Shown here piece after piece: positions 37,561 to 51,266 of a stretch of 64,000 nt of DNA. The notes below the pieces were generated by a model. The model worked only from the letters and a program-made list of their open reading frames with translations, made no database searches and was not told the origin of the DNA. This stretch comes from Vulcanimicrobiota bacterium. Lineage in GTDB: Bacteria; Vulcanimicrobiota; Vulcanimicrobiia; Vulcanimicrobiales; Vulcanimicrobiaceae. Where the stretch lies: the NCBI GenBank assembly GCA_027452165.1, contig DAIDGX010000003.1:186001-250000 (forward strand), written 5' to 3'. Within the stretch, counting starts at the first letter, position 1, and every line of letters begins with the position of its first letter. The translations under genes were made by a program, and so were the position numbers.

Positions 37561-37681
37561 GGCGGCGACTCCACCGGTCTAATTCCCGCGCGTAGAGCAC
37601 GGCCGAACGTTCTTGGAGCTTTCTGTGGGTAAGCGCGCTCATACGCACCCGTCGCAGTGAGTCCGAAATGGTCGTCATCAT
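37550..37681 (-). CDS. 43-aa basic ORF coupled to the tolC gene
   Basis: This ORF was found by hand. ATG at 37681 overlaps the tolC stop (ATGA), a second ATG follows at once, and the frame runs 43 codons to a TGA at 37550. It reads M-M-T-T-I-S-D-S-L-R-R-V-R, then a Lys/Arg-rich amphipathic stretch. About 72 percent of codons end in G or C, as in true genes here. It overlaps the 3' end of pgl on the opposite strand. Function unknown; the overlap argues for translation but not for a role. Confidence 0.4.
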   Translation of the reverse strand: MMTTISDSLRRVRMSALTHRKLQERSAVLYARELDRWSRRLTR

Positions 37682-39390
37682 TTCTGTGCATCTCCCGTTC
37701 CGAGCTTTGCTAACGTAACGCCATTGGCCGCCAAAATAGTTCCGTCGGCACGCTGCAGCTCGACGACCGCTTTGTTCAAATCGGTCTGCGCTTGCAACTC
37801 CCGTCCTTCGTCGGCAACCAATTCGGTCTCGCGTTGCAGTACGAGGAACGTCGTCGATGCGCCATTTTTGAATTTGCGCTGTTCGCTTGCATAGACGGCC
37901 GCCGCGTTCTCGCGCGCGCGCCGGGCAGCATAGAGGCGAGCAACCGCCGATTGATACCCTTGCACCGCATTTCGCACGTCGAAGAGGATGCGCTGATCGA
38001 TGCCCTTGCTTTGGATATTCGCGATGCGCGCTTGCTCGCTCGCCGCAGCAAGGCTCGCCCTTGCCGTGCGATTGCCAAGCGGCGTCGATATCACGACACC
38101 CGCCGAGTACGTGGGAAAGCGTCCAAGGTTTCCGTACGCCTGCCCGAAGGTTCCCCCCAAATAACCGGGCGGCGTCTGCGCGCCGAATTGAGCGAGCGGC
38201 GGCAAGGCGTTTCCGGCAAAGCCGTTGCCCTGATACTGCACTTGCAGGTTGACCTCGGGAAGCAGTTGATTCTTCGCATACGCGAGGCTGGCACTCGCCT
38301 GTGCCTGCTCAGCCTGCACCTGTGCAAGCTCGGGCCGATGCTGCATCGCGCGCGCCAGCTCTTGATCGAGCTTTGGTGCCTGCGGCAACTGCCGCACGGG
38401 CGACGTCGGCATGAGGTTCGCCTGCCAGATCGGATCCGCGGGATCGTCCACGATCATGCTTTTGAGTTGATTTTGTAATTCGGAAACGGTCTGAAGGGCG
38501 GAGAAGACATTGTCTTGATAGACGGCGACTTGGGTTGAGGACTCCACCGCGTCGATCGGTGCCGCGGCGCCCTTCTTCGCAAGACGCACGTTACTGTTCT
38601 GTTGCGCTATCGTATTGCGGAGTGCCGATTCTTGGATCGCCGCGTTACGCCACGCCGCGACCAGGTCCCAATAGACGTCTTCGACGCCTGCGATCGTGTT
38701 CGATGCGGCGGCGAGCGCCTGAGCGCGCGTCGCGTCGTCGTTGATGCGCGCGAGTTCCAGTTGAAGTTTGGCCGGGTTGATGCCGGCGTTCTTCAAGAGT
38801 GGCTGCGTGACGGCAAGGTTGATGCTCGCTAGGTAATAGGGGTCGAAGGCATTGACAACCGTATTGTCGTCAACGCGCGTCTGCGAGACACTTGCACTAA
38901 ACTCGGTTCCGAGTGGAAGCTGACCGGAGACTCCCGCCTGCAGGTTTTGAACGTTCTGCTCGACGGGTCCGAATTTCGGACCTGCAAAAAATGCGTTTTC
39001 CGGAGCGCTCTTACTGTGTTTGATCGACGGTTCGATCATAAAGCGCAGATCGTACGCCCCCTTCGCCTCCCCGATCTGATATGCCGCGATCTTCGCGTTT
39101 GCCGCTGCGACCGCCAGATCGGGGTTTTTCAGCAGCGCCATCCCGATGGCGTTCTCGAGCGAGATCCCGACGAACGGCTGCTGCGTCACGCCGACGACAT
39201 TGGCGTTCGCCGGAGGCACCTCGGGAGCGTGAAAGCCCGGAGCGACCGCGGGCACCGGCGGCGCGATGGGAGATGGTTCGGGTGACGGTATGCTCACCGC
39301 CGACACGGAAGGTTGCGCCGCCCGTGCGACGACGGCACTGCCGCCCGCAAGCGCGAGCGAGAGTGCAAAGACGGAGAGATGTCGAGTCAT
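37678..39390 (-). CDS. TolC-type outer-membrane efflux channel
   Basis: This 570-aa protein has a signal peptide (about 1-25), a Pro-rich linker (about 30-55) and two OEP repeats with long heptad-like helices (about 85-300 and 310-545). It forms the outer-membrane duct for the EmrAB pump encoded just upstream. ATG 39390 is chosen because A-A-G-G-A-G lies eight bases upstream and the signal peptide starts there; a longer reading to 39429 overlaps emrB. Confidence 0.92.
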   Translation of the reverse strand: MTRHLSVFALSLALAGGSAVVARAAQPSVSAVSIPSPEPSPIAPPVPAVAPGFHAPEVPPANANVVGVTQQPFVGISLENAIGMALLKNPDLAVAAANAKIAAYQIGEAKGAYDLRFMIEPSIKHSKSAPENAFFAGPKFGPVEQNVQNLQAGVSGQLPLGTEFSASVSQTRVDDNTVVNAFDPYYLASINLAVTQPLLKNAGINPAKLQLELARINDDATRAQALAAASNTIAGVEDVYWDLVAAWRNAAIQESALRNTIAQQNSNVRLAKKGAAAPIDAVESSTQVAVYQDNVFSALQTVSELQNQLKSMIVDDPADPIWQANLMPTSPVRQLPQAPKLDQELARAMQHRPELAQVQAEQAQASASLAYAKNQLLPEVNLQVQYQGNGFAGNALPPLAQFGAQTPPGYLGGTFGQAYGNLGRFPTYSAGVVISTPLGNRTARASLAAASEQARIANIQSKGIDQRILFDVRNAVQGYQSAVARLYAARRARENAAAVYASEQRKFKNGASTTFLVLQRETELVADEGRELQAQTDLNKAVVELQRADGTILAANGVTLAKLGTGDAQK

Positions 39391-39406
39391 CACGAGCACT
39401 CCTTGT

Positions 39407-40939
39407 TCATTCGGCCGCAATGTGGCCACCTAGACGCGGTTTGTTCAAGAGTAAAACGAGCGGCGCAAGCGCAATCGAAAGGATCGCAACCCACCGCGAG
39501 GTGTCGGCGTAGGACATAACAACCGCCTGCCCCTCGACGAGCGCCTCCAAATTTGCAAGCGCGACCACGGAATGTTCGCCGCCGTGTTGCTGCAAGTAGA
39601 TCGCCGTCGGCGCATGCCGTAGCGTCTCGGACGCCGCAAGCTGCGTTTGGTGGTAGGTGATACCGCGCACGAGGATCGTCACCAGAACCGCGGTCGCGAT
39701 GCTCCCTCCGACCTGGCGCGAAAGGTTGAAAAACGCCGAGGTCGCCGGCACGTCCTTGTCGGGAACGCCGCCGAGCACGGCAACCGACAGAGGGACGAAT
39801 ATCTGCGAGAGCCCGATGCCGCTAATGATGAGCGACGCGACGAACGTCCCAAAATCCGCCGTCGGTGTGGTAACACCGGCAAGCATCCAATTCGAAACGC
39901 CGAGCAACACGAAGCCGAGCGCGGTCGAAAGCCGTACGTCGACCGTGCCGCGGCTTGCAAGCGCCGCCGTGATCGGCGTAAAGAGCATCACCGCGCCTGC
40001 GCGCGTAAGGATGGTGAGGCCCGAGAGCGTAGCCGTAAATCCAAGCGAACCTTGGAGATATTGTGGAAGCACCAGGATCGAGCCGTAGAGGCTCACGCCA
40101 AGCACGGCGCCAAGGACGCTTCCGGCCGCGACTTGGCGCAGGCGGAGCACGTGTAGATCGACCACCGGAATCGCCGAGCGCAGCGTCCACCACACGAAGC
40201 CGATGATGCCGCCCGCGGCAAGAGCGGTAAAGAGGCGAATATTCGGGTCGCTGAACCAATCGTATTGCTGCCCCTGATCGAGCACGTACTGCATCGAGCC
40301 AAGACCCAGGGCGAGCAATCCCAAGCCGACCCAGTCAAGCTTCCTCTGTTGCGGCTCGGACGGATTGCGCAGATACATCCAAATCAGCGTTGCCGCCACG
40401 ATACCAACCGGAAGGTTGATGAAGAACGCCCAACGCCATGTCAAATTGTCGGTGATCCAGCCGCCAAGCACCGGTCCCAGGGCTGGACCGACGATCACGC
40501 CCATGGCGAAGATGCCTTGCGCCTTGCCTTGTTCGCGCAGCGTGTACGTATCGCGTAAGATCGCCTGAGAGGTCGAGATCAAACCGCCTCCTCCTAAGCC
40601 CTGTATGATGCGCCAGAACACCAGGCTCCCGAAGCTACCCGCGAGCCCGCACATCAAGGATGCGATCGTAAAGATGACGATCGAGGCAAAGAAGTACTGA
40701 CGCCTTCCAAAACGCGCGGCAAGCCACGGCGTGATCGGAATCACGATGACGTTTGCCACGATATATCCCGTGACGATCCAAGCACCCTGATCCACCGGCA
40801 CTCCGAAATTTCCTTGGATGTTTGGCAACGCCACGTTCACGATCGTGGTGTCGATGATCTCGAGTAACGTCGCAGCGATAACCGCGATGCTCACGATCGC
40901 ACGGCGTGTGCCGTGTTCGACGACGCTCTGCTGCTGCAC
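39407..40939 (-). CDS. DHA2-family MFS drug exporter (EmrB-like)
   Basis: This 510-aa, 14-helix transporter has the family motif L-E-I-I-D-T-T-I-V-N-V-A-L-P-N-I near 27-42, the loop G-R-R-Q-Y-F and motif C (G-P-A-L-G-P-V-L-G-G-W-I) near 151-162. GTG start. It would pump drugs through EmrA and TolC as a tripartite system. It is about half identical in layout to the second pump at 62374, which has no EmrA or TolC partner. Confidence 0.93.
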   Translation of the reverse strand: MQQQSVVEHGTRRAIVSIAVIAATLLEIIDTTIVNVALPNIQGNFGVPVDQGAWIVTGYIVANVIVIPITPWLAARFGRRQYFFASIVIFTIASLMCGLAGSFGSLVFWRIIQGLGGGGLISTSQAILRDTYTLREQGKAQGIFAMGVIVGPALGPVLGGWITDNLTWRWAFFINLPVGIVAATLIWMYLRNPSEPQQRKLDWVGLGLLALGLGSMQYVLDQGQQYDWFSDPNIRLFTALAAGGIIGFVWWTLRSAIPVVDLHVLRLRQVAAGSVLGAVLGVSLYGSILVLPQYLQGSLGFTATLSGLTILTRAGAVMLFTPITAALASRGTVDVRLSTALGFVLLGVSNWMLAGVTTPTADFGTFVASLIISGIGLSQIFVPLSVAVLGGVPDKDVPATSAFFNLSRQVGGSIATAVLVTILVRGITYHQTQLAASETLRHAPTAIYLQQHGGEHSVVALANLEALVEGQAVVMSYADTSRWVAILSIALAPLVLLLNKPRLGGHIAAE

Positions 40940-40965: not shown

Positions 40966-42222
40966 TTAGCGCACTTTCACGTAGGCTTCGACGCTCATGC
41001 CGGGCCGAAGCGGTTTGCTCGCCTGCATGTCGTCGATCGATATCCGCACGGGGATACGCTGCGTTACCTTCACAAAGTTCCCCGTCGCGTTTTGCGAAGG
41101 AACGAGTGCGTAGGTGTTCTGCGAGGCAGGGTTGATCGACACGACGTGCCCGTGGAACAGCGTTCCCTTGTAGGCATCGACCGTGATATCCGTAGGTTGC
41201 CCCACCTTCATATCGCCAAGCTGCGTTTCTTTGAAATTCGCTGTCACGTAAATCTTACCGGGTCCATCGGGAATCAGCGTCATCAACGTCATACCCGCTT
41301 GCACCGTCTGCCCAACCTCAGCGCTCTTTTCCCCGATGTAACCATCCGAGGGAGCATAGATGCGCGTGTACGCAAGATTTTGCCTGGCGATGTTCAATTG
41401 TGCGCGCGCGGCCTCCACTTGACTGGAATCGGTCGACTGCGCGAGTTTTCCCTGAGCCGTTGTCACGCCACCCTGCGCGGCGGATACGCCGGCAAGCGCC
41501 GCCGAGACGCGCTGCTGCGCCGCCGTAAGGTTGGCGAATGCGACGTTGATTTCGTCTTTTGCGGAGCGCATCTGCGCCGCCGCGCTTGCCGCCTCGGCAC
41601 GTGCCGCATCTAACTGCGCCTTCGACACGTCACCGGTTCGGAAGAGCGACGCCGCGCGACGATAGTCCGCCGCAGCACGCTCGTCAGCCGCTTGCGCCGC
41701 CGGTAATTGCGCCTGTGCCGCGCTCAATTGGGCGCGCGCCTGTGCCACGTCGGCATCCGCGACCGGCACCGCAACTTGCGCACTGATCGCGTTTGCCCGT
41801 GCCTGCATCATGCCGCCCTGGCTCTGAAGGGTATTGGTCGCCTGGTTCGCCGTCGCGAGATCGTACTGCGCCTGCGCCGTGCGAACCTGATCTTCTTCGA
41901 CCGCATTATCGAGTACGATCAGCAGCTGGCCCTTCTTCACCTCTTGGTTCGTATCCACGAGAATCTTGTCGATCCGCTCATTGATCTTGCTCGTCACAGC
42001 CACCGGATCGGCGTCGATACGGGCGTCGTCGGTACCCTCGTGCACGCGGGCGTAAAGGAACCACTTGACACCCCACACGAGCAAGATCACCGCCACGATC
42101 GCGCCGATCGTGCCGAAGATCACGCGTTTGCGCGGGCCGCTTCGCTCCTCGATCTGATCTATCGCCACATCGCCGCTCCCATTGCTCGTAGATGAAGGTT
42201 TTTGTGCTTCACGCGTGTCCAT
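40966..42222 (-). CDS. HlyD/EmrA-type membrane fusion protein
   Basis: This 418-aa periplasmic adaptor has one N-terminal transmembrane helix (about 34-54), split lipoyl halves, a long Ala/Gln-rich coiled-coil hairpin (about 115-265) and a C-terminal beta domain. The A-A-G-G-A-G site eight bases before ATG 42222 sits inside the tetR 3' end, and the two genes overlap by 14 bp. It bridges the MFS pump and the TolC channel. Confidence 0.92.
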   Translation of the reverse strand: MDTREAQKPSSTSNGSGDVAIDQIEERSGPRKRVIFGTIGAIVAVILLVWGVKWFLYARVHEGTDDARIDADPVAVTSKINERIDKILVDTNQEVKKGQLLIVLDNAVEEDQVRTAQAQYDLATANQATNTLQSQGGMMQARANAISAQVAVPVADADVAQARAQLSAAQAQLPAAQAADERAAADYRRAASLFRTGDVSKAQLDAARAEAASAAAQMRSAKDEINVAFANLTAAQQRVSAALAGVSAAQGGVTTAQGKLAQSTDSSQVEAARAQLNIARQNLAYTRIYAPSDGYIGEKSAEVGQTVQAGMTLMTLIPDGPGKIYVTANFKETQLGDMKVGQPTDITVDAYKGTLFHGHVVSINPASQNTYALVPSQNATGNFVKVTQRIPVRISIDDMQASKPLRPGMSVEAYVKVR

Positions 42223-42841
42223 GTCCGTTGCTCCTTACGCCGTTGAGAAAGACGTCGATCATATAGCGGAGTGCGTAGTCCGTATCGGTAAAAATTCTTT
42301 GGTCAGGGAATTTTTCGCGAGCGATCACGCGCACGAACATCATCCCCATAAACACCGAGGCAAGTTCTCCGGGGTCGCCCCGCAAATAACCCTCGGCAAT
42401 GCGCGAGGACATATACTCCGTGATGACGCCGCGAATCGCCGTCTGTGGACGCCAGGTCTCTTGCGCAAAAATGTTGTTCTCGTAATCGGACTCGACGAGC
42501 GACCAACGAATCATGTCGATCATCGACTCCATGCGCTCCGTCATCGCTTTGCCGATGGTAAAGAGTTCTTCCTCAAGCGACCCCTTCAACTGCGAGATCA
42601 CGTCGCGAAGAACGATGTCGCCACACGTGTGCCGTGCGACCGCGATGATGAGCGCGTCCTTGTTTCCGAAGTGCCGGAATAGCGTTGCTTCATTGACGCC
42701 AGCGGCATCTGCGATCTCGCGCGTGGTTGCACCGCGCTTACCTTTGCGCGCCATCACCTCGCGCGCGGCGAGAAGAATGCGCTCACGGGTATCCTCGGGC
42801 GTCGAGCGTGGAGCGTCGGGCGATTTGGCGTTATCGATCAT
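42209..42841 (-). CDS. TetR-family regulator of the efflux operon
   Basis: This 210-aa repressor has an N-terminal helix-turn-helix (about residues 17-63: T-R-E-R-I-L-L-A-A-R-E-V-M then T-T-R-E-I-A-D-A-A-G-V-N-E-A-T-L-F-R-H-F). A helical ligand domain follows. It lies within the operon, overlapping the LolA-like gene by four bases. Paired palindromes upstream of the first gene (43793-43862) are its most likely operators. Confidence 0.92.
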   Translation of the reverse strand: MIDNAKSPDAPRSTPEDTRERILLAAREVMARKGKRGATTREIADAAGVNEATLFRHFGNKDALIIAVARHTCGDIVLRDVISQLKGSLEEELFTIGKAMTERMESMIDMIRWSLVESDYENNIFAQETWRPQTAIRGVITEYMSSRIAEGYLRGDPGELASVFMGMMFVRVIAREKFPDQRIFTDTDYALRYMIDVFLNGVRSNGHGHA

Positions 42842-43500
42842 TGCTGCGTGAAGACCTTAGAGTCCACGGCGACGTTCGTGCGATAGGTTTCGTACACGGA
42901 ATCACCGACCGCGTGGATATGCGGAATATTGATCTCGACGTGCTGCTGCGAGATGAGGGCGAACCCGCCTTCGTTGCGGTACCATTGCCGCATCACGATC
43001 TTTCCACCGCTCGTGTAATACCATTCCATGCGATCGAGCTCGTAGGTTGCGGGATCCACGTAGGCAAGCGCGTGGTCGAGAATCGAGCTGTGAATTTTTT
43101 TGGTGAGACGCAGCACGATCATCGGGTGCCCATCGATGGCTCGCATACCGTCGTACGTCACGTTCTGGTCGTTTTCCCAGGCAGCCGGGTCGCCGATATC
43201 GGTAAAAAGTTTTCCAAACCCCTTGGCATAGCTCGGCATACGATCGAAAACGACGACGAATTTGCCGGGACGCTTGTAATACGTCGTTCCATCGAGCGTC
43301 GGGGCCAAAAAAGGAAAATTCAGCATGCGCAGATTCACATGAACCCGAGCGGTGTAACTCGCAAGCGCTGGATTGCGGGCGAGCATCTTCTCGATCACGG
43401 CATGCGCGCTCGACGGGGCTGGCGTCACCGGTGCCGCCGGCGCAGCGGCAAGCAGAACGAGTGCCGCGATGGTAGCAACAAGCGTGCGAATCAGCGTCAT
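42838..43500 (-). CDS. LolA-like periplasmic protein
   Basis: This 220-aa exported protein has a signal peptide (about 1-23) and a half-barrel pattern like LolA/outer-membrane lipoprotein-sorting proteins, with the characteristic D-P-A-T-Y-E-L-D-R-M-E-W-Y-Y near 147-160. It may bind a lipid or hydrophobic compound in the periplasm. It overlaps both neighbours by four bases, placing it in the efflux operon. The exact ligand is unknown. Confidence 0.78.
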   Translation of the reverse strand: MTLIRTLVATIAALVLLAAAPAAPVTPAPSSAHAVIEKMLARNPALASYTARVHVNLRMLNFPFLAPTLDGTTYYKRPGKFVVVFDRMPSYAKGFGKLFTDIGDPAAWENDQNVTYDGMRAIDGHPMIVLRLTKKIHSSILDHALAYVDPATYELDRMEWYYTSGGKIVMRQWYRNEGGFALISQQHVEINIPHIHAVGDSVYETYRTNVAVDSKVFTQQ

Positions 43501-43781
43501 GCCGCCTCGACGAGCGGAAAGATGCGATCGAGCGCCGTGACCTTGAGGGAGCGCAGGATGTCAGGACGCGAGGCGCGCAGCGCGAGTTCTCCGCCGCGTT
43601 CGCGCGTGCGCCGCAGCAGGGAGATCAGGCCACGAACGCCTTCAACGTCGAGCCGTTCGAGGGAATCGAGGTTGAAGACCACCATCGGGGCGCCGGCATC
43701 GAGGGCGGCGAGCGACGCCGCCTGCAGTTGCTCGAGCGCGGCCGGATCGTAGTCAAACGTCGGGGAATCGGTATCCGTCAT
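43497..43781 (-). CDS. STAS-domain protein lacking the phospho-serine
   Basis: This 94-aa single STAS domain resembles anti-anti-sigma factors. The segment L-E-R-L-D45-V46-E47-G48-V aligns with the D-S-S-G motif of SpoIIAA, so the kinase-target serine is Val and the next serine is Glu. A permanently on or off partner-switch protein, or a non-signalling role, is possible. It is the first gene of the efflux operon, next to the paired palindromes. No anti-sigma kinase gene is in the window. Confidence 0.85.
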   Translation of the reverse strand: MTDTDSPTFDYDPAALEQLQAASLAALDAGAPMVVFNLDSLERLDVEGVRGLISLLRRTRERGGELALRASRPDILRSLKVTALDRIFPLVEAA

Positions 43782-43792
43782 CTTCTATCCAT

Positions 43793-43862
43793 CATGCAAG
43801 TGGGTACCTGCATGCACAAGATTACCACCTTCAGGTTACGCGTGCAAGTACCCACTTGCAGG
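43793..43862. promoter_or_regulatory. Two near-identical palindromic operators
   Basis: Copy A (core 43795-43812) reads TGCAAGTGGGTACCTGCA. Copy B (core 43843-43860) is TGCAAGTACCCACTTGCA, whose reverse complement differs from copy A by one base. Copy B has perfect 7-bp arms; centres are 48 bp apart. They lie in the 121-bp gap between the divergent STAS-efflux operon and the serine hydrolase. A weak minus-strand promoter (TTGCAC, 17 bp, TAATCT) would place the -35 in copy B and the transcript start near copy A. Confidence 0.7.
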
Positions 43863-43902
43863 CCGCAGGGTTGCGCTTGCGGGGCAGGAAATCGCTCGGC
43901 CG

Positions 43903-44685
43903 ATGATCGCGCCATCCGAGCTTACCTCCCTCGTAGCCGCTCACGGACTGCATCCTCGTGGCGTTGTGCTTCGGAGCCTCGATGGGGCAGGAGGCGTTGC
44001 ACTCGATCCGGAGATCCCGCTCTACCCAGCGAGCATGATCAAGACCCCGCTCGTCGCCGCCGCCCTGCTCGAGGCCGAGTCCGGCCGTTACGGTCTCGAC
44101 GACCCGGTTGCGATCAACGCGGCCAACCTCACCGAGAACGACGCCCCGTCGCCGCTGGTTCCCGGCTACACGGCGACCGTGCGCGAACTCTGTACCCGCG
44201 CGATCGCCTACTCCGACAACGTTGCGACCAACGAGCTTTACGACCTGGTAGGGCGCGAACGCGCAACGAGCCTTGTTCGCCGGCACCTCGGGCTTGGAGC
44301 AACCGGCTTCTTCCGCAAGCTCTCGGGCAGCGAGCCCCGCATCGCAGATGCGGGATGGGACGGCATGCGGCTCAACACCCACCCCCCATGCGATGCGGCG
44401 CGGTTATTCGAGGCAATCGCGAGCGACGCCATTCCTTACGCTGACCTTCTGCGCGACATGCTCGCTGCACAGATGTGGAACGAGAAGCTCGCGTGCGGTC
44501 TCCACGACGGCGATCGTTTCGCACACAAAACCGGCGACACGGACGAGGTTTGCCACGACGGCGGCATTCTCACCACCGCTTCCGGTAGCCGGTACGTCAT
44601 CGTCGTGTACACTGGTCTCGCGAGTTCAAAAGCAAACGACGCGCGCCTCGCCTCCTTCATGAAGGCGCTGCGCGCGTCGTTATAG
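43903..44685 (+). CDS. Serine hydrolase of the beta-lactamase fold, no signal peptide
   Basis: This 260-aa protein has the penicillin-recognising triad S44-M-I-K47, S-D-N near 106 and H-K-T-G-D near 209. It fits the Beta-lactamase2 family. The class A glutamate motif E-x-x-L-N is not clear (R-L-N-T-H-P-P instead). No export signal is present at the chosen ATG, and the in-frame upstream codons offer no start. A cytoplasmic hydrolase is therefore more likely than a secreted resistance enzyme. It is divergent from the efflux operon. Confidence 0.82.
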   Translation: MIAPSELTSLVAAHGLHPRGVVLRSLDGAGGVALDPEIPLYPASMIKTPLVAAALLEAESGRYGLDDPVAINAANLTENDAPSPLVPGYTATVRELCTRAIAYSDNVATNELYDLVGRERATSLVRRHLGLGATGFFRKLSGSEPRIADAGWDGMRLNTHPPCDAARLFEAIASDAIPYADLLRDMLAAQMWNEKLACGLHDGDRFAHKTGDTDEVCHDGGILTTASGSRYVIVVYTGLASSKANDARLASFMKALRASL

Positions 44686-44704: not shown

Positions 44705-45118
44705 TTAGTCGCCGTCGGTATCGCCGTCGCTCGAGGGCGTCCCCATTGTCGCTCCCGCATGTTTGCCGTGCATCGCACGCTTTCCAGCGCCGGCCGCATG
44801 ATAGCCGGCCTTTGCGGCAGCCGACGGGCACATGAATCCGCCGTGCTTCGTCTTGCCGTAGTAGGGATCGTTCGGTTCGTGATACACATGCGTTGCCATG
44901 TTGACCCACACGGGCTTCATCGCCCCGCACGAAAGCGACGCTGCGTCGGCAGACATACCGGCCTGCATAGCCCCCTTCATCGACGACATCGCGCCGCCCA
45001 TGGTGCTCGCCACCGGCGCAGCCGAAGCCGCCGTGCTCGACGAGGCGGATTTGCCCCCGCCACACGCCGCGAGCGCGACGACAACGAGCACTGAGATCAT
45101 CGATTTATGGAATGACAC
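44705..45118 (-). CDS. Small lipoprotein with His/Met-rich tail
   Basis: This lipoprotein of about 137 aa has the lipobox L-A-A-C-G-G-G, then a Ser/Ala/Met-rich spacer. A compact motif P-V-W-V-N-M-A-T-H-V-Y-H and Y-Y-G-K-T-K-H-G-G-F-M-C, then A-A-K-A-G-Y, follows, a pattern seen in many uncharacterised exported proteins. The tail is rich in His, Lys and Met. I prefer GTG 45118, with A-A-G-G-A-G ten bases upstream; ATG 45100 and TTG 45127 are alternatives. It overlaps the amidohydrolase end by 14 bp. Confidence 0.72.
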   Translation of the reverse strand: MSFHKSMISVLVVVALAACGGGKSASSSTAASAAPVASTMGGAMSSMKGAMQAGMSADAASLSCGAMKPVWVNMATHVYHEPNDPYYGKTKHGGFMCPSAAAKAGYHAAGAGKRAMHGKHAGATMGTPSSDGDTDGD

Positions 45119-46397
45119 GTTTCGCAATCTCCTTTACCGTATGCGCAGCATGATGCGCTAGAGGAGAGCGTTCGCCGGTAAAGACGCGGGCTCCGCCGAC
45201 GAAGGCCGCCTGCACCGACCGATCTTCGGCACGGTACACCAACGCTTGGACGTCGGGCGACCACGGATCGACGCGGGTCGCGTCGAGCACAACGTAATCG
45301 GCAAAGTTTCCAGGCGTCAAATCGCCCGTCGCAACGCCCAGCGCGCGCGCTCCCTGCGCCGTCCCGAGATCGAACGCGGCGCGGGCGCCGAGTGCACTTC
45401 CATCGACGCGCCGGATCTTTTGGAGCAACGTCGCTGCACGCATCTCATCGATGAGCGAAGGCTTCACATCGGCATCGGTCCCAAGCCCCATCGTGACACC
45501 GAGCGCTTGCAGCCCGACGACGTCGCAAATGCCGTCACCGAGATATTGGTTGGTCATCGGATTGTGGATCACGCGCGCATCGCGCTGTGCGAGCAGCCGC
45601 TTCTCCTCTTCCGTAATGTAGATCGCGTGAATCGCGACGGTCCGCTCGTCGAGCGCGTCGAGGCGATCGAGCAGGGCGATCGGGGTAGCGCCGTGTTTCG
45701 CCAGCGTCTCCTCTCCCTCGTAGGGAGCTTCGGCAACGTGCACGTGCATCATGCATTGCTGTTCGCGCGCGAACGCGGCCGCAGCTCGAATCATTTCGTG
45801 CGAGGCCGCGTGCAGCGAGTGCGGCGCGACGCAGACGTTCGCCCACGGAAAGCGTTCACGGAGTTCGAGCGTGCGTTCGCGTGCGACGTCGATCGTCTCT
45901 CGAAATTGCGCCGGCGCGTAGGCGGCGTCCATCCACGTTCGTGCAAAGACGATGCGGATGCCAGTATCCGCGGCCGCCCGTAACGCGGCCTCCGCATGCG
46001 CATTTCCTGCGCCGTTCAAATAGAAAAACTCCGCGACCGTCGTAATGCCCGCGGCGAGCATCTCCGAAAACGCCATGACGAAGATCCAGTAGATATCGTC
46101 GGGCGTCAGTTGCGGCACGACCTCGTAGAGCGCCTCGCTGCGCCATCGCGCAAATGGAAGATCGTCGGCCCACCCGCGTAGCAGAATTTGATACGCATGG
46201 CTGTGCCCGTTCACGAAGCCCGGAACGATCAGGCGGTCCGCCGGAAACGCCCGTGCCGGGAGGTCGCGCGCGCGCTCTTGAACGACCGCAAAATCGCCAG
46301 CGTCGACGATCGTTCCATGACGCACGACGAACGCGTAGTCGCGCCGTTCTTCGCCGCCGACGAGCGCCCGCGCGGCGCGCACCAATTCATCGATCAT
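45105..46397 (-). CDS. Amidohydrolase, candidate formimidoylglutamate deiminase
   Basis: This 430-aa ATZ/TRZ-type amidohydrolase has the metal ligands H-S-H in N-G-H-S-H-A near 64, H-V-H-x-A-E near 209, a His in A-I-H-A near 245 and D in G-T-D near 290. The ATG overlaps the hutI stop by four bases. In a hut operon the likely role is HutF, turning formiminoglutamate into formylglutamate. Adenosine- or guanine-type deaminases of the same family are alternatives. A longer reading upstream overlaps hutI and is rejected. Confidence 0.8.
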   Translation of the reverse strand: MIDELVRAARALVGGEERRDYAFVVRHGTIVDAGDFAVVQERARDLPARAFPADRLIVPGFVNGHSHAYQILLRGWADDLPFARWRSEALYEVVPQLTPDDIYWIFVMAFSEMLAAGITTVAEFFYLNGAGNAHAEAALRAAADTGIRIVFARTWMDAAYAPAQFRETIDVARERTLELRERFPWANVCVAPHSLHAASHEMIRAAAAFAREQQCMMHVHVAEAPYEGEETLAKHGATPIALLDRLDALDERTVAIHAIYITEEEKRLLAQRDARVIHNPMTNQYLGDGICDVVGLQALGVTMGLGTDADVKPSLIDEMRAATLLQKIRRVDGSALGARAAFDLGTAQGARALGVATGDLTPGNFADYVVLDATRVDPWSPDVQALVYRAEDRSVQAAFVGGARVFTGERSPLAHHAAHTVKEIAKRVIP

Positions 46398-47641
46398 ACG
46401 TTCTCTCCATGGCGCACGAGGGCGCCGCGATGCACCACCGCTCGCGCGAGGTTGCCGCCGTGTAACCACCCGAACTCCTCCGGCGAAGCAAGTTCCATGG
46501 CAACGAAGTCGGCAACGCCACCGGCCCGTAGCCTGCCGGCATCGACGCGCAACGAATGCGCCGCCGCGCGGGTAACGCCGTAGAGTGCCTCGGCCGCGCT
46601 CATGCCAAACAGTTTGCGTCCAAAATATGCAACCGTCTGGAGATTGAAGCACGGCGAAGTTCCTGGATTGAAATCGCTCGCAAGCGCAACCGTACCACCG
46701 CGTGCGAGCAGATCACGCACCGGCGCCCGTCGCGGCAGATCGAGGTATGCGATCGTAGCCGGGCATGCAACCGTCACAATGCCTGCATCGGCGATCGCGC
46801 GTGCGTCCACATCGCGGATGCAGTTGCAGTGATCGACCGCATCCACGCCGACTTGCACGGCCATCTCTGCCGCCGCGCCAAACGACATCTCGTCACAATG
46901 AACGCGCAAACGCATGCCGTGCAGGCGACACGCTTGCAGATAGCGCCGTGTCACCTCCGGTGAGAAGAATCCAGGTTCGCAGAAGGCGTCGGCATAGATC
47001 GCACCGTGTGAGGCCGCGCTCGGAATCACGTGGTCGATCAGGTATTCGACGAACGCCTTCTCGTTCGTAAACTCCGGCGGCAAGGCGTGTGCGCCGAGAA
47101 AGGTAGCGACGAGGGCGGGTACGTCCGCATCATCTTTGTGCGTGGCGATCAGGTCGAGCAGGGCGGTTTCGCCCGGCTTGTGCAGCGCATATCCCGTCTT
47201 GGTTTCGAGCGTCGTTGTTCCGTGTGCGAGCAGCAGTTGCAGCCGTGGACGCACGATTCGGTCGTAGAACGAACGCGCATGTAGTAGCGCCTCACGCGTG
47301 CGCTCCACGGTATAGAGCATGCCGAGCGGCGCCCTTTCCCCCCGTTGGCGCGCGGTGAAATCAGGCTCGCGGTCTCCGGCAAAAAGCGGGTGCGCGTGCG
47401 CATCGACGAAACCCGGTACGACGACACTATCGCCCAGATCGAGTTCCCGAACGTCGCGCGAGCCGATGGCGCGCTCCACCTCTGCTCGTGCGCCGATTGC
47501 CGCGATGTGCTCACCCTCAACGAGCATCGCCCCGTCGTCGATACGACCGAGATCGTCAAACGTGACGCCGCATTGCGCGGCGTCACGTTCGCAACTGATG
47601 ATCGTCCGGGCGCGGACGAGCAGCGGCGTTACAGACGCCAA
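46394..47641 (-). CDS. hutI: Imidazolonepropionase
   Basis: HutI opens imidazolonepropionate to formiminoglutamate. The 415-aa product has [12 protein letters not shown] near 80-91 (metal site), K-T-G-Y-A-L near 147, H-C-D-E-M near 248 and D-F-N-P-G-T-S near 321. It overlaps hutU by 13 bp and the amidohydrolase by 4 bp. Length and motif order match the family. Confidence 0.95.
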
Positions 47642-49290
47642 TCGATGCCCTTTTCATCGGCGGTCGCGACGGCAAGGTCGTAGCCTGCATCCGCGTGGCG
47701 TACGACACCCATGCCGCAATCGGTATCAAGCACCGCCTCCAGGCGTGCCTGCGCGTCATCCGAACCATCGGCCACCACGACCATGCCCGAATGCTGCGAG
47801 TAGCCGATGCCGACACCGCCACCATGATGCAAGCTCACCCAGTGCGCACCGGCCGCCGTGTTCAAAAGTGCGTTCAGGAGCGGCCAATCGGAGATCGCAT
47901 CGCTACCGTCCTTCATCGACTCCGTCTCACGATAGGGCGATGCGACACTACCGGTGTCGAGATGATCGCGTCCAATGACGATCGGCGCCGAGATCGCGCC
48001 GCTGCGCACGAGTTCGTTAAAGCGCAGGCCGGCCTTCTTGCGATCGCCGAACCCAAGCCAACAGATGCGGGCGGGTAATCCTTGGAATGCGATCCGCTCG
48101 CGGGCAAGACGAATCCAGCGCTGCAGTCCGGCGTCCTGCGGAAACATCGCGAGCAGTTCTTCGTCGAGACGGTGAATATCGGCCGGATCCCCGGAGAGCG
48201 CGGCAAAACGGAACGGTCCCGAGCCCTTGCAGAAGAGCGGGCGGATGAACGCGGGAACGAAACCCGGAAACGCAAACGCGCGTCCATAACCGGCTTTTTG
48301 AGCCATAGCGCGCAGATTGTTGCCGTAATCGAAGACGATCGCGCCGGCATCGAGAAAACGCACCATCGCTTCGACGTGTTTCCCGCAACTCTCGAGCGCG
48401 CGCCGCTCGTACTCACCCGGATCGCGCTTGCGCAGATCGTCGGCCTGTGCAAGCGTCACGCCCTCGGGCACGTATCCGTTGATGAGATCGTGCGCCGACG
48501 TCTGATCGGTCACGGCGTCGGGACGCAAGCCAAGATCGTAGAGTTCCCAGAATTCGGTCGCAGCATTCCCTTCGTAACCGATCGAGATCGCCTCGCCCGC
48601 GGCTTTCGCACGCGCGACCTCGCGTAGCGCCTCTTCGCGTGAATCGACGACTTTGTCGAGATACCGCAGATCGCGACGGCGTTCCAAGCGTGCTCGATCC
48701 ACATCGACGACGAGCGCGATGCCCTCGTTCATCGTAATCGCGAGCGGCTGCGCGCCGCCCATGCCGCCGATTCCGGCGGTCAAGCAGACGCGACCTTTCA
48801 GCGAGCCGCCAAAATGCTGGCGCGCGAGCTCCGCGAAGGTCTCGTAGGTGCCCTGCACGATGCCCTGCGTGCCGATGTAGATCCACGAGCCGGCCGTCAT
48901 CTGGCCGTACATGATCAGGCCCTTGGCCTCGAGTTCGCGGAAGACCGACCAATCGGCCCACTTCGGCACGAGATTTGAGTTTGCGATCAGGACGCGCGGT
49001 GCCCGTTCGTGCGTCTTCCACACCGCAACCGGCTTGCCCGACTGCACAACCATCGTCTCGTCGTTCTGCAAACGTTTGAGCGTGCGAACGAGCGCGTCGA
49101 ACGCCTCCCACGAGCGCGCCGCGCGGCCATTACCGCCGTAGACGACGAGATCATCGGGGCGCTCGGCCACCTCGGGATCGAGGTTGTTCATGAGCATACG
49201 CAGCGCCGCTTCTTGCGGCCAGCCATGGCAGTTCAATTGCGTGCCGCGCGGCGCGCGCACGGTGCGGGGTCCGGAGATCGTGCTGGTCAT
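47629..49290 (-). CDS. hutU: Urocanate hydratase
   Basis: Urocanase hydrates urocanate to imidazolonepropionate using NAD as an electrophile. The 553-aa protein has Y-G-G-N-G-R-A-A near 51, G-G-M-G-G-A-Q near 173, the catalytic-Cys region P-A-R-I-C-W-L-G near 408-415 and H-H-G-G-G-V-G near 498. It follows hutH by 75 bp, and that gap contains a GGCCC/GGGCC hairpin but no T-run. Confidence 0.97.
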
Positions 49291-49365
49291 AACCCGTTCG
49301 AGATTCCGGCCTCGTTCGGCGGCCCCTTCGGGCCCTACCCGGAACGGTAGAGCAGCCCTCGCAGG

Positions 49366-50916
49366 CTAGAGCTTTACCTGTGCCGCACGTTCGGCGGCGG
49401 CTACGAGCGCGCCCGAGCGAATCAACTCGCGCGCCGCGACGATATCCGGGGCGGGAACGCGGTCCTCGGTCCAGGGTGCGATGCGTTCGCGCGCGGCGTC
49501 ATAAGCGGCTTGCGTCCCGATGCCGGAGCGCAGCGGACGGCGAAAATCGGTCGCGGCGAGCGCACCGAGCAACTCGCAGGCAAGGGCGCCTTCCACGTTG
49601 TCGAGCACGCGCACGAGATTGTTCGCCGAGGTCATGCCCATGCTCACGTGATCTTCCTGTCCCGCCGACGTCGGAATCGAATCGACGCTCGAGGGCCACG
49701 CGAGCGCTTTGTTGTCGTTGACAACCGCGGCAGCAGCGTACTGCACGATCATGAGCCCCGACTGCAAGCCGGAACGTCCGGTGAGAAAGAGCGGGAGATC
49801 GCGGTCCTCCGCGTTGAGCAACAGATACAAGCGCCGTTCGCCGATCGACGCGAACTCGGCGATCGCCATCTTTAAAAAGTCCATCGCAAGCGCGATCGGT
49901 TCGCCGTGAAAGTTTCCTCCGGAGAGAAACTCCCCGTCGTCGGGGAAGACGAGTGGGTTATCGGTAACCGAGTTCGCCTCGGTTTCGGCAACGCGCCGCA
50001 CGTGCGCGATCGAATCGCGTACGGCGCCGTGTACCACCGGAATGCACCGGAACGAGTAGGGATCTTGAACGCGACCGCACTCGCGATGCGACTGCATGAT
50101 CTGCGACTCGGCGAGAATCGCCCGCAGATTCGCTGCCACCTTCGTCTGGCCCGGATGAGGACGCAGATCGTTCAGCCGCTGATCGAAGACGCGATCGGTC
50201 CCGAGATACGCCTCGAGCGACATCGCCGCGATCACGTCGGCTGCGGCGGCGAGACGCTCTGCGCGCAGCACCGCGAGCGCAGCCGTTCCCGTCATCACCT
50301 GCGTGCCGTTGATCAGCGCGAGCCCTTCTTTGGGACCAAGCGTCACCGGACGTAACCCCGCACGTTCGAGCGCTTGCCCACTTGGCATGCGCTCCCCGCG
50401 ATACCACGCTTCGCCTTCGCCGATCAGCGTGAGCGTCATGTGCGCGAGCGGTGCGAGATCGCCCGATGCGCCGACCGATCCCTGACACGGTACCACCGGT
50501 ATCACACCGCGATTGAGAAGCTCGACGAGCAACGCGAGCGTCTCCGGTTTCACGCCCGAATGTCCGGCGGCGAGCGAATTTACACGCAGCACGCCCGCGG
50601 CGCGCACGCGATGTACATCGAGAGGTTCCCCGGTACCCGACGCATGCGAACGAACGAGGTTCAATTGTAACTGTGCGGCGTCTTTCGGATCGATGTGTAC
50701 GTTCGCCAAGCGACCGAATCCGGTCGTGACGCCGTAGATCGCGTGGCCGTCCGCGAAGCGCTCATCCACAAAACGGCGCGCCTTGGCAACGCGCTCGTGC
50801 GCCGCCGCGGCAACGGCGACGGGTGCACCGCCGGCAACCGCCTCGATTGCTTCAAGGGTGAGGTGACGCCCGTCGAGTTCGACGGGTGCAAGGGCATCGC
50901 GGGTCGTGGAGGTCAT
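49366..50916 (-). CDS. hutH: Histidine ammonia-lyase
   Basis: HutH removes ammonia from histidine to give urocanate. The 516-aa product has the MIO-forming A150-S151-G152 in G-S-V-G-A-S-G-D-L-A-P-L and Y-G-V-T-T-G-F-G near 61. ATG 50916 is chosen because an M-T-S-T-T N-terminus gives the usual length; an in-frame extension towards 51387 is low-complexity and crosses the intergenic region. It is first in the hut operon. Confidence 0.96.
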   Translation of the reverse strand: MTSTTRDALAPVELDGRHLTLEAIEAVAGGAPVAVAAAAHERVAKARRFVDERFADGHAIYGVTTGFGRLANVHIDPKDAAQLQLNLVRSHASGTGEPLDVHRVRAAGVLRVNSLAAGHSGVKPETLALLVELLNRGVIPVVPCQGSVGASGDLAPLAHMTLTLIGEGEAWYRGERMPSGQALERAGLRPVTLGPKEGLALINGTQVMTGTAALAVLRAERLAAAADVIAAMSLEAYLGTDRVFDQRLNDLRPHPGQTKVAANLRAILAESQIMQSHRECGRVQDPYSFRCIPVVHGAVRDSIAHVRRVAETEANSVTDNPLVFPDDGEFLSGGNFHGEPIALAMDFLKMAIAEFASIGERRLYLLLNAEDRDLPLFLTGRSGLQSGLMIVQYAAAAVVNDNKALAWPSSVDSIPTSAGQEDHVSMGMTSANNLVRVLDNVEGALACELLGALAATDFRRPLRSGIGTQAAYDAARERIAPWTEDRVPAPDIVAARELIRSGALVAAAERAAQVKL

Positions 50917-51266
50917 GGCGCCTATCTTCCGGCCACCATCCGGCTCGCCTGCATCTGGAAGCGGTTCGCGAGGCCGGCGCGCACGGCGGATAGCCGGTGG
51001 GTAACCGTAAGAATCTTGTGGATAGCGTGTGTATGGCAGGAGCGATCTCTTGTGGCACCATGAGGGCGGTGCTACGATGCGAGAACTTCGAATCAAATCG
51101 AAGTGCGCCGCACGTATCGGACGCGACGTGGATCCCGATTGTGAAAGCTGCGATGGCAGCGATCCGACCGCCACGGCCGAACCGCCGCTCGACGTCAGTA
51201 GGGCTCTCCCACCCGGGAGCCAGACAGGCGAGAACGGTGCGCGAATACGTCGAAACCCGTCGGAAT
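50917..51266. other. 350-bp intergenic region before the hut operon
   Basis: No convincing protein gene. On the plus strand a promoter-like pair (TTGTGG 51050-51055, 17 bp, TACGAT 51073-51078) precedes a perfect 7-bp hairpin (51085-51104), and the region ends in a strong terminator. The hut promoter (minus) must also lie here, but I cannot place it. Short plus-strand frames run through the terminator and look non-coding. Confidence 0.6.

Follow-up and report, generated by a model that had tools for sequence, protein, structure and literature searches.

Twin palindromes form a putative TetR operator pair at the promoter of a conserved efflux operon in Vulcanimicrobiota

A short intergenic region in the genome of an uncultured Vulcanimicrobiota bacterium contains two palindromes that very probably constitute an operator pair for a TetR-family regulator, clamping the single predicted sigma-70-type promoter of a STAS-LolA-tetR-emrA-emrB-tolC operon. 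The sites themselves, their specificity for this locus, their deep conservation, their overlap with the promoter and their covariation with the regulator were computed directly from the genomes. The region (positions 43782-43902) belongs to the window, the 64,000-nucleotide stretch of contig DAIDGX010000003.1 analysed here, in a genome assembly of 2.64 Mb (27 contigs, 95% complete). It is flanked by divergent genes that start at 43781 on the minus strand (STAS) and at 43903 on the plus strand (a serine hydrolase), in agreement with an earlier, sequence-only reading of this DNA. The minus-strand genes form a six-gene operon in the order STAS, LolA-like, TetR, EmrA, EmrB and TolC, with genes that overlap or are closely spaced (Table 1). 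The stand-alone STAS protein and the periplasmic LolA-like protein at the head of the operon (42838-43781), an arrangement kept in many genera, are an uncommon addition to an operon of the EmrAB-TolC type. On the 3' side of the hydrolase gene, the minus strand encodes a small lipoprotein-like ORF and the histidine-degradation genes hutF-like, hutI, hutU and hutH (44705-50925), which adjoin the locus in many genera.

Table 1. Genes and predicted regulatory features of the efflux locus (window coordinates)
Feature	Position	Strand	Remarks
TolC-type outer-membrane efflux protein	37678..39429	-	Pfam OEP, E 1.1e-30, two stretches
EmrB-type DHA2 MFS efflux permease	39407..40939	-	TIGR00711, 397.7 bits (cut-off 230.2)
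EmrA/HlyD-type periplasmic adaptor	40966..42222	-	HlyD domains clear; TIGR00998, 231 bits, under the cut-off of 390.8
TetR-family regulator	42209..42841	-	Pfam TetR_N, E 2.9e-16; proposed binder of operators 1 and 2
LolA-like periplasmic protein	42838..43500	-	220 aa; 4-nt overlap with STAS and with tetR; label from sequence inspection alone, Pfam/NCBIfam match absent
STAS-domain protein	43497..43781	-	94 aa; operon gene 1; Pfam STAS_2, E 1.5e-10
Operator 1, TGCAAGTGGGTACCTGCA	43795..43812		18 bp; 1 mismatch to TGCAAGT-N4-ACTTGCA; covers predicted +1 of leftward promoter
Predicted extended -10, TGG-TAATCT	43819..43827	-	17 bp from -35
Predicted -35, TTGCAC	43842..43847	-	inner half of operator 2
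Operator 2, TGCAAGTACCCACTTGCA	43843..43860		18 bp; perfect; inner half contains -35 of leftward promoter
Class-A beta-lactamase-fold serine hydrolase	43903..44685	+	PF13354; divergent neighbour of operon

The sequence-only reading described the palindromes as two 18-bp copies of TGCAAGT-N4-ACTTGCA in opposite directions. This is accurate for operator 2, but operator 1 deviates at one position in the window genome (it is perfect in both congeners), and the opposite orientation applies to nothing but the 4-bp spacer, which is asymmetric (GGGT/ACCC) and free to vary from genus to genus. The two sites lie 48 bp apart, start to start, and each is almost exactly the reverse complement of the other, so that they form a 21-bp inverted repeat. 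A pattern search of the entire 2.64-Mb genome, a check suggested in that reading, yielded no site with up to one mismatch besides operators 1 and 2, which rules out a common genomic repeat or a chance occurrence; with two mismatches allowed, two further sites were recovered versus three for a reversed-pattern control. A literature search did not uncover a described operator with the sequence of either site.

The distribution of the motif was analyzed in 99 genomes of the family (Ca. Eremiobacterota/Vulcanimicrobiota, WPS-2), where the close relatives are represented by metagenome-assembled genomes. The exact motif is present at 53 sites in 47 of these genomes, one or two in each, compared with none for the reversed control, and all 53 are located within 1.3 kb upstream of an orthologue of tetR, a gene found in 94 of the 99 genomes and missing from none of the 55 good ones. 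When regions were selected by the TetR protein alone, an upstream site with at most two mismatches was detected in 92 of the 98, and the rest of these loci, 775 kb altogether, contained a single such site. No exact site was found in 18 genomes of the same class from outside the family, of which 14 (family f3) have no close orthologue of TetR and the other four (family f2) possess a diverged one. Twin operators were identified in 74 regions from 31 genera at a spacing of 43-49 bp, with 47 bp in 43 regions and 48 bp in 21, so that 64 of the 74 pairs are separated by about 4.5 helical turns. The half-sites that face the spacer between the operators are nearly fixed as TGCAAGT, and the outer half-sites are variable or degenerate, often reading TGCGTGT; some genera retain only one recognisable site. 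A compact palindrome of 14-22 bp was considered as the true unit and rejected because the recurrent TGCGTGT variant of the outer half-site explains the data more simply.

The AlphaFold2 model of the regulator shows an all-helical TetR fold (pLDDT 89.4), and the best 50 Foldseek matches to this model are TetR-type regulators with TM scores of ~0.6-0.7. The nearest sequence and structure neighbours include MexL and FrrA, efflux-linked TetR regulators which, at ~20% identity, predict neither the effector nor the operator of the present protein. Within the family, the recognition region TTREIA..AGVNEATLFRHF hardly changes even where overall identity drops to ~40%. In the sister family f2, the recognition helix is GVNEVTLF. 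The palindrome there adjoins tetR on the upstream side, has the sequence TGTAAGY-N4-RCTTACA and is contained within a promoter with a TTGACA -35 element and a 17-bp spacing to the -10. An Ala to Val replacement in the recognition helix coincides with a change from TGCAAG to TGTAAG in the operator, and this covariation, which represents a single evolutionary event, links the TetR protein to the site. Operators of another DNA-binding protein, encoded elsewhere in the genome, are a highly improbable alternative given that in each genome the sites are confined to the tetR locus and that they have changed in step with the recognition helix of TetR.

A conserved leftward promoter is predicted between the operators, with the -35 sequence TTGCAN in the inner half of operator 2, a 17-bp spacing, TANNNT at the exact -10 offset in 26 of the 31 twin-pair genera and the extended -10 TGNTANNNT in 22. 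In the window, transcription is predicted to start near 43812, at the edge of operator 1. By a simple promoter score, the best leftward promoter exceeds shuffled sequences by a mean z of +2.2, and the score is much alike in loci with and without the hydrolase gene. This promoter anatomy points to the efflux operon as the target. Co-localisation of the exact sites with tetR orthologues, overlap with a conserved promoter and helix-operator covariation together support the suggestion of the sequence-only reading that the palindromes suit the TetR of the operon, and make binding of TetR at both operators and autorepression of the efflux operon well supported predictions.

The inverted arrangement of the two sites could alternatively reflect an RNA-level element, that is, a hairpin, terminator or leader structure, for which 90% complementarity over 21 nt might seem to speak. 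We consider this scarcely credible, however, and rejected it: the predicted transcript begins at operator 1 and would not include both arms, some genera keep one site only, each unit is palindromic by itself, and the conserved promoter sits in the spacer between the units.

In the TetR switch that we propose instead, one dimer on operator 2 would cover the -35 and another on operator 1 would cover the start site, the two probably lying on roughly opposite faces of the helix, as judged from their spacing. In the absence of ligand, TetR, which is encoded within the operon, would repress both the pump and itself, whereas the ligand-bound protein would leave the DNA and allow expression of the operon. 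Because the hydrolase start codon is close to operator 2, the same bound repressor might also partially silence the divergent hydrolase as a secondary effect. A point against the switch is the position of tetR, third in the operon, which makes the supply of regulator dependent on leaky expression. The components of this scheme that we infer are the actual binding of TetR, repression rather than activation, and release by a ligand.

A stronger proposition, compatible with the efflux switch, is that the same TetR pair represses the divergent hydrolase as well, such that pump and enzyme are co-induced; we regard this as a serious possibility, although on balance we lean slightly against it. The hydrolase gene is located divergently, directly beyond operator 2, in 26 of the twin-pair genera, and its start codon is no more than ~60 nt from operator 2 in most genera and 1-20 nt in several, so near that an upstream promoter must fall in or near the operators. 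Moreover, repression by the TetR regulator is the usual case for divergent genes at a distance below 200 bp (PMC3511530). Operator 2 is near-perfect in 17 of the 26 genera with the hydrolase versus one of the five without it, a difference that is not significant (Fisher p=0.13). Against shared control, no position-conserved rightward -10 was found among the 31 twin-pair genera, and the rightward promoter score averages a z of -0.3 relative to shuffles whether or not the hydrolase gene is present. Furthermore, the operator pair is kept in the five genera that lack the hydrolase; hydrolase genes sited elsewhere, namely the relocated copy in genome G024 and the homologues in family f3, have no operator; and in f2 the hydrolase gene, pointing the same way as the hut genes, is upstream of the operator. 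A face-to-face hydrolase promoter with its -35 in operator 1 was also considered and discarded, there being no -10 at the appropriate spacing. Interference of bound TetR with hydrolase expression is possible, given the position of the start codon, and control of the hydrolase by TetR only plausible. Of the idea that one regulator governs both export and enzymatic attack, the part on the efflux operon, whose leftward promoter is overlapped by the operators, is supported, and the part on control of the hydrolase, for which no conserved rightward promoter is apparent, is at most plausible.

The hydrolase is predicted to adopt the class-A/PBP-A fold (~21-26% identity in fold alignments), and the motifs S44/K47 (SxxK), S104-D105-N106 (SDN) and K209-T210-G211 (KTG) are invariant in 72 of 72 sequences; Arg138-Lys139 and Asp149, also invariant, are peculiar to this enzyme. 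The class-A fold and the three motifs, together with a Glu (Glu144) in the window copy at the position aligned with Glu166, would agree with a joint defence, with export by the pump and destruction by the hydrolase of one and the same compound, for example, a beta-lactam. Nevertheless, this scenario appears very unlikely. The Glu166-aligned residue is variable, with Glu, Leu and Asp in 24, 22 and 20 of the 72 sequences, respectively; PBP-A, a DD-peptidase that lacks the catalytic Glu (PMC11189452), is among the nearest folds; and the score against the NCBIfam class A model, 69.9 bits, does not reach the cut-off of 200. In addition, only ~43-46 residues precede the nucleophile, too short a stretch to include a signal peptide, which indicates a cytoplasmic enzyme; in many genera the start codon adjoins operator 2. 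With the variable Glu166 position, the short N-terminus and the PBP-A-like fold, a periplasmic beta-lactamase role is unlikely, and the sequence-only proposal that the hydrolase attacks the class of compounds handled by the pump finds no backing in these data. Compared with PBP-A of Thermosynechococcus and the class A beta-lactamases, the hydrolase shares the fold and the three motifs but differs in its low identity, the missing signal peptide, the variable Glu166 position and its own conserved residues. HutG (PF05013) was detected neither in the window genome nor in ~90% of the family; a role of the hydrolase as a HutG replacement was rejected because HutG is missing also in genera without the hydrolase, and the two patterns of presence and absence are not complementary.

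A deeply conserved TetR twin operator of an efflux operon is a classical, known kind of switch, here in a poorly studied phylum; a literature search did not retrieve regulatory data for Ca. Eremiobacterota/Vulcanimicrobiota. As in the Tn10-type tetR/tetA system (PMC3511530), two palindromes share one short intergenic region, the repressor is a TetR-family dimer and the target is efflux. Unlike in tetR/tetA, the regulator gene is here a member of the efflux operon, a single leftward promoter is flanked by the two operators, and no conserved promoter could be detected for the divergent gene, which encodes an enzyme; with respect to overlap of the operators with divergent promoters, the leftward overlap was observed in 26 of the 31 genera, and a rightward promoter was not detected. 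The operon itself resembles MFS tripartite efflux systems of the EmrAB-TolC type with a TetR-family regulator in combining a probable EmrA-type adaptor, an EmrB-type DHA2 permease, TolC and tetR. It differs from E. coli emrRAB, the regulator of which belongs to the MarR family, in having TetR, and it additionally starts with the STAS and LolA-like genes. The locus provides an exact predicted regulator-operator pair, together with the layout of its promoter and the way in which it varies naturally in at least 31 genera; the pair is directly testable in vitro, and the operator could be built into reporters for discovering ligands. Should the hydrolase be co-controlled, this would be a first lead on a beta-lactamase-fold enzyme family of unknown function. 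It is unlikely, in our estimate, that the two-operator TetR switch jointly controls the STAS/LolA-extended EmrAB-TolC-type operon and a cytoplasmic hydrolase that modifies the natural substrate of the pump before export, possibly in connection with the adjacent histidine-degradation genes.

Finally, several variations of the locus deserve mention. In three f2 loci (L064, L066 and L074), the operator, with the half-site TGTAAG, is located between the hydrolase gene and tetR, and in the neighbourhood of the f3 hydrolase both the pump and the hut genes are absent. In L042, L111 and L115, which come from genera lacking the hydrolase, only ~10-30 nt separate the end of the hut operon from the operators, and its transcription, directed at the efflux operon, might read through. 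The window genome encodes a second, distant class-A-like homologue (G000:C24:72130-72780, E 4.5e-26). The assembly G089 contains two tetR-operator-hydrolase loci, L163 (G089:C118) and L120 (G089:C82), one of which is much more distant (40% TetR identity); the presence of two copies may reflect contamination or transfer.
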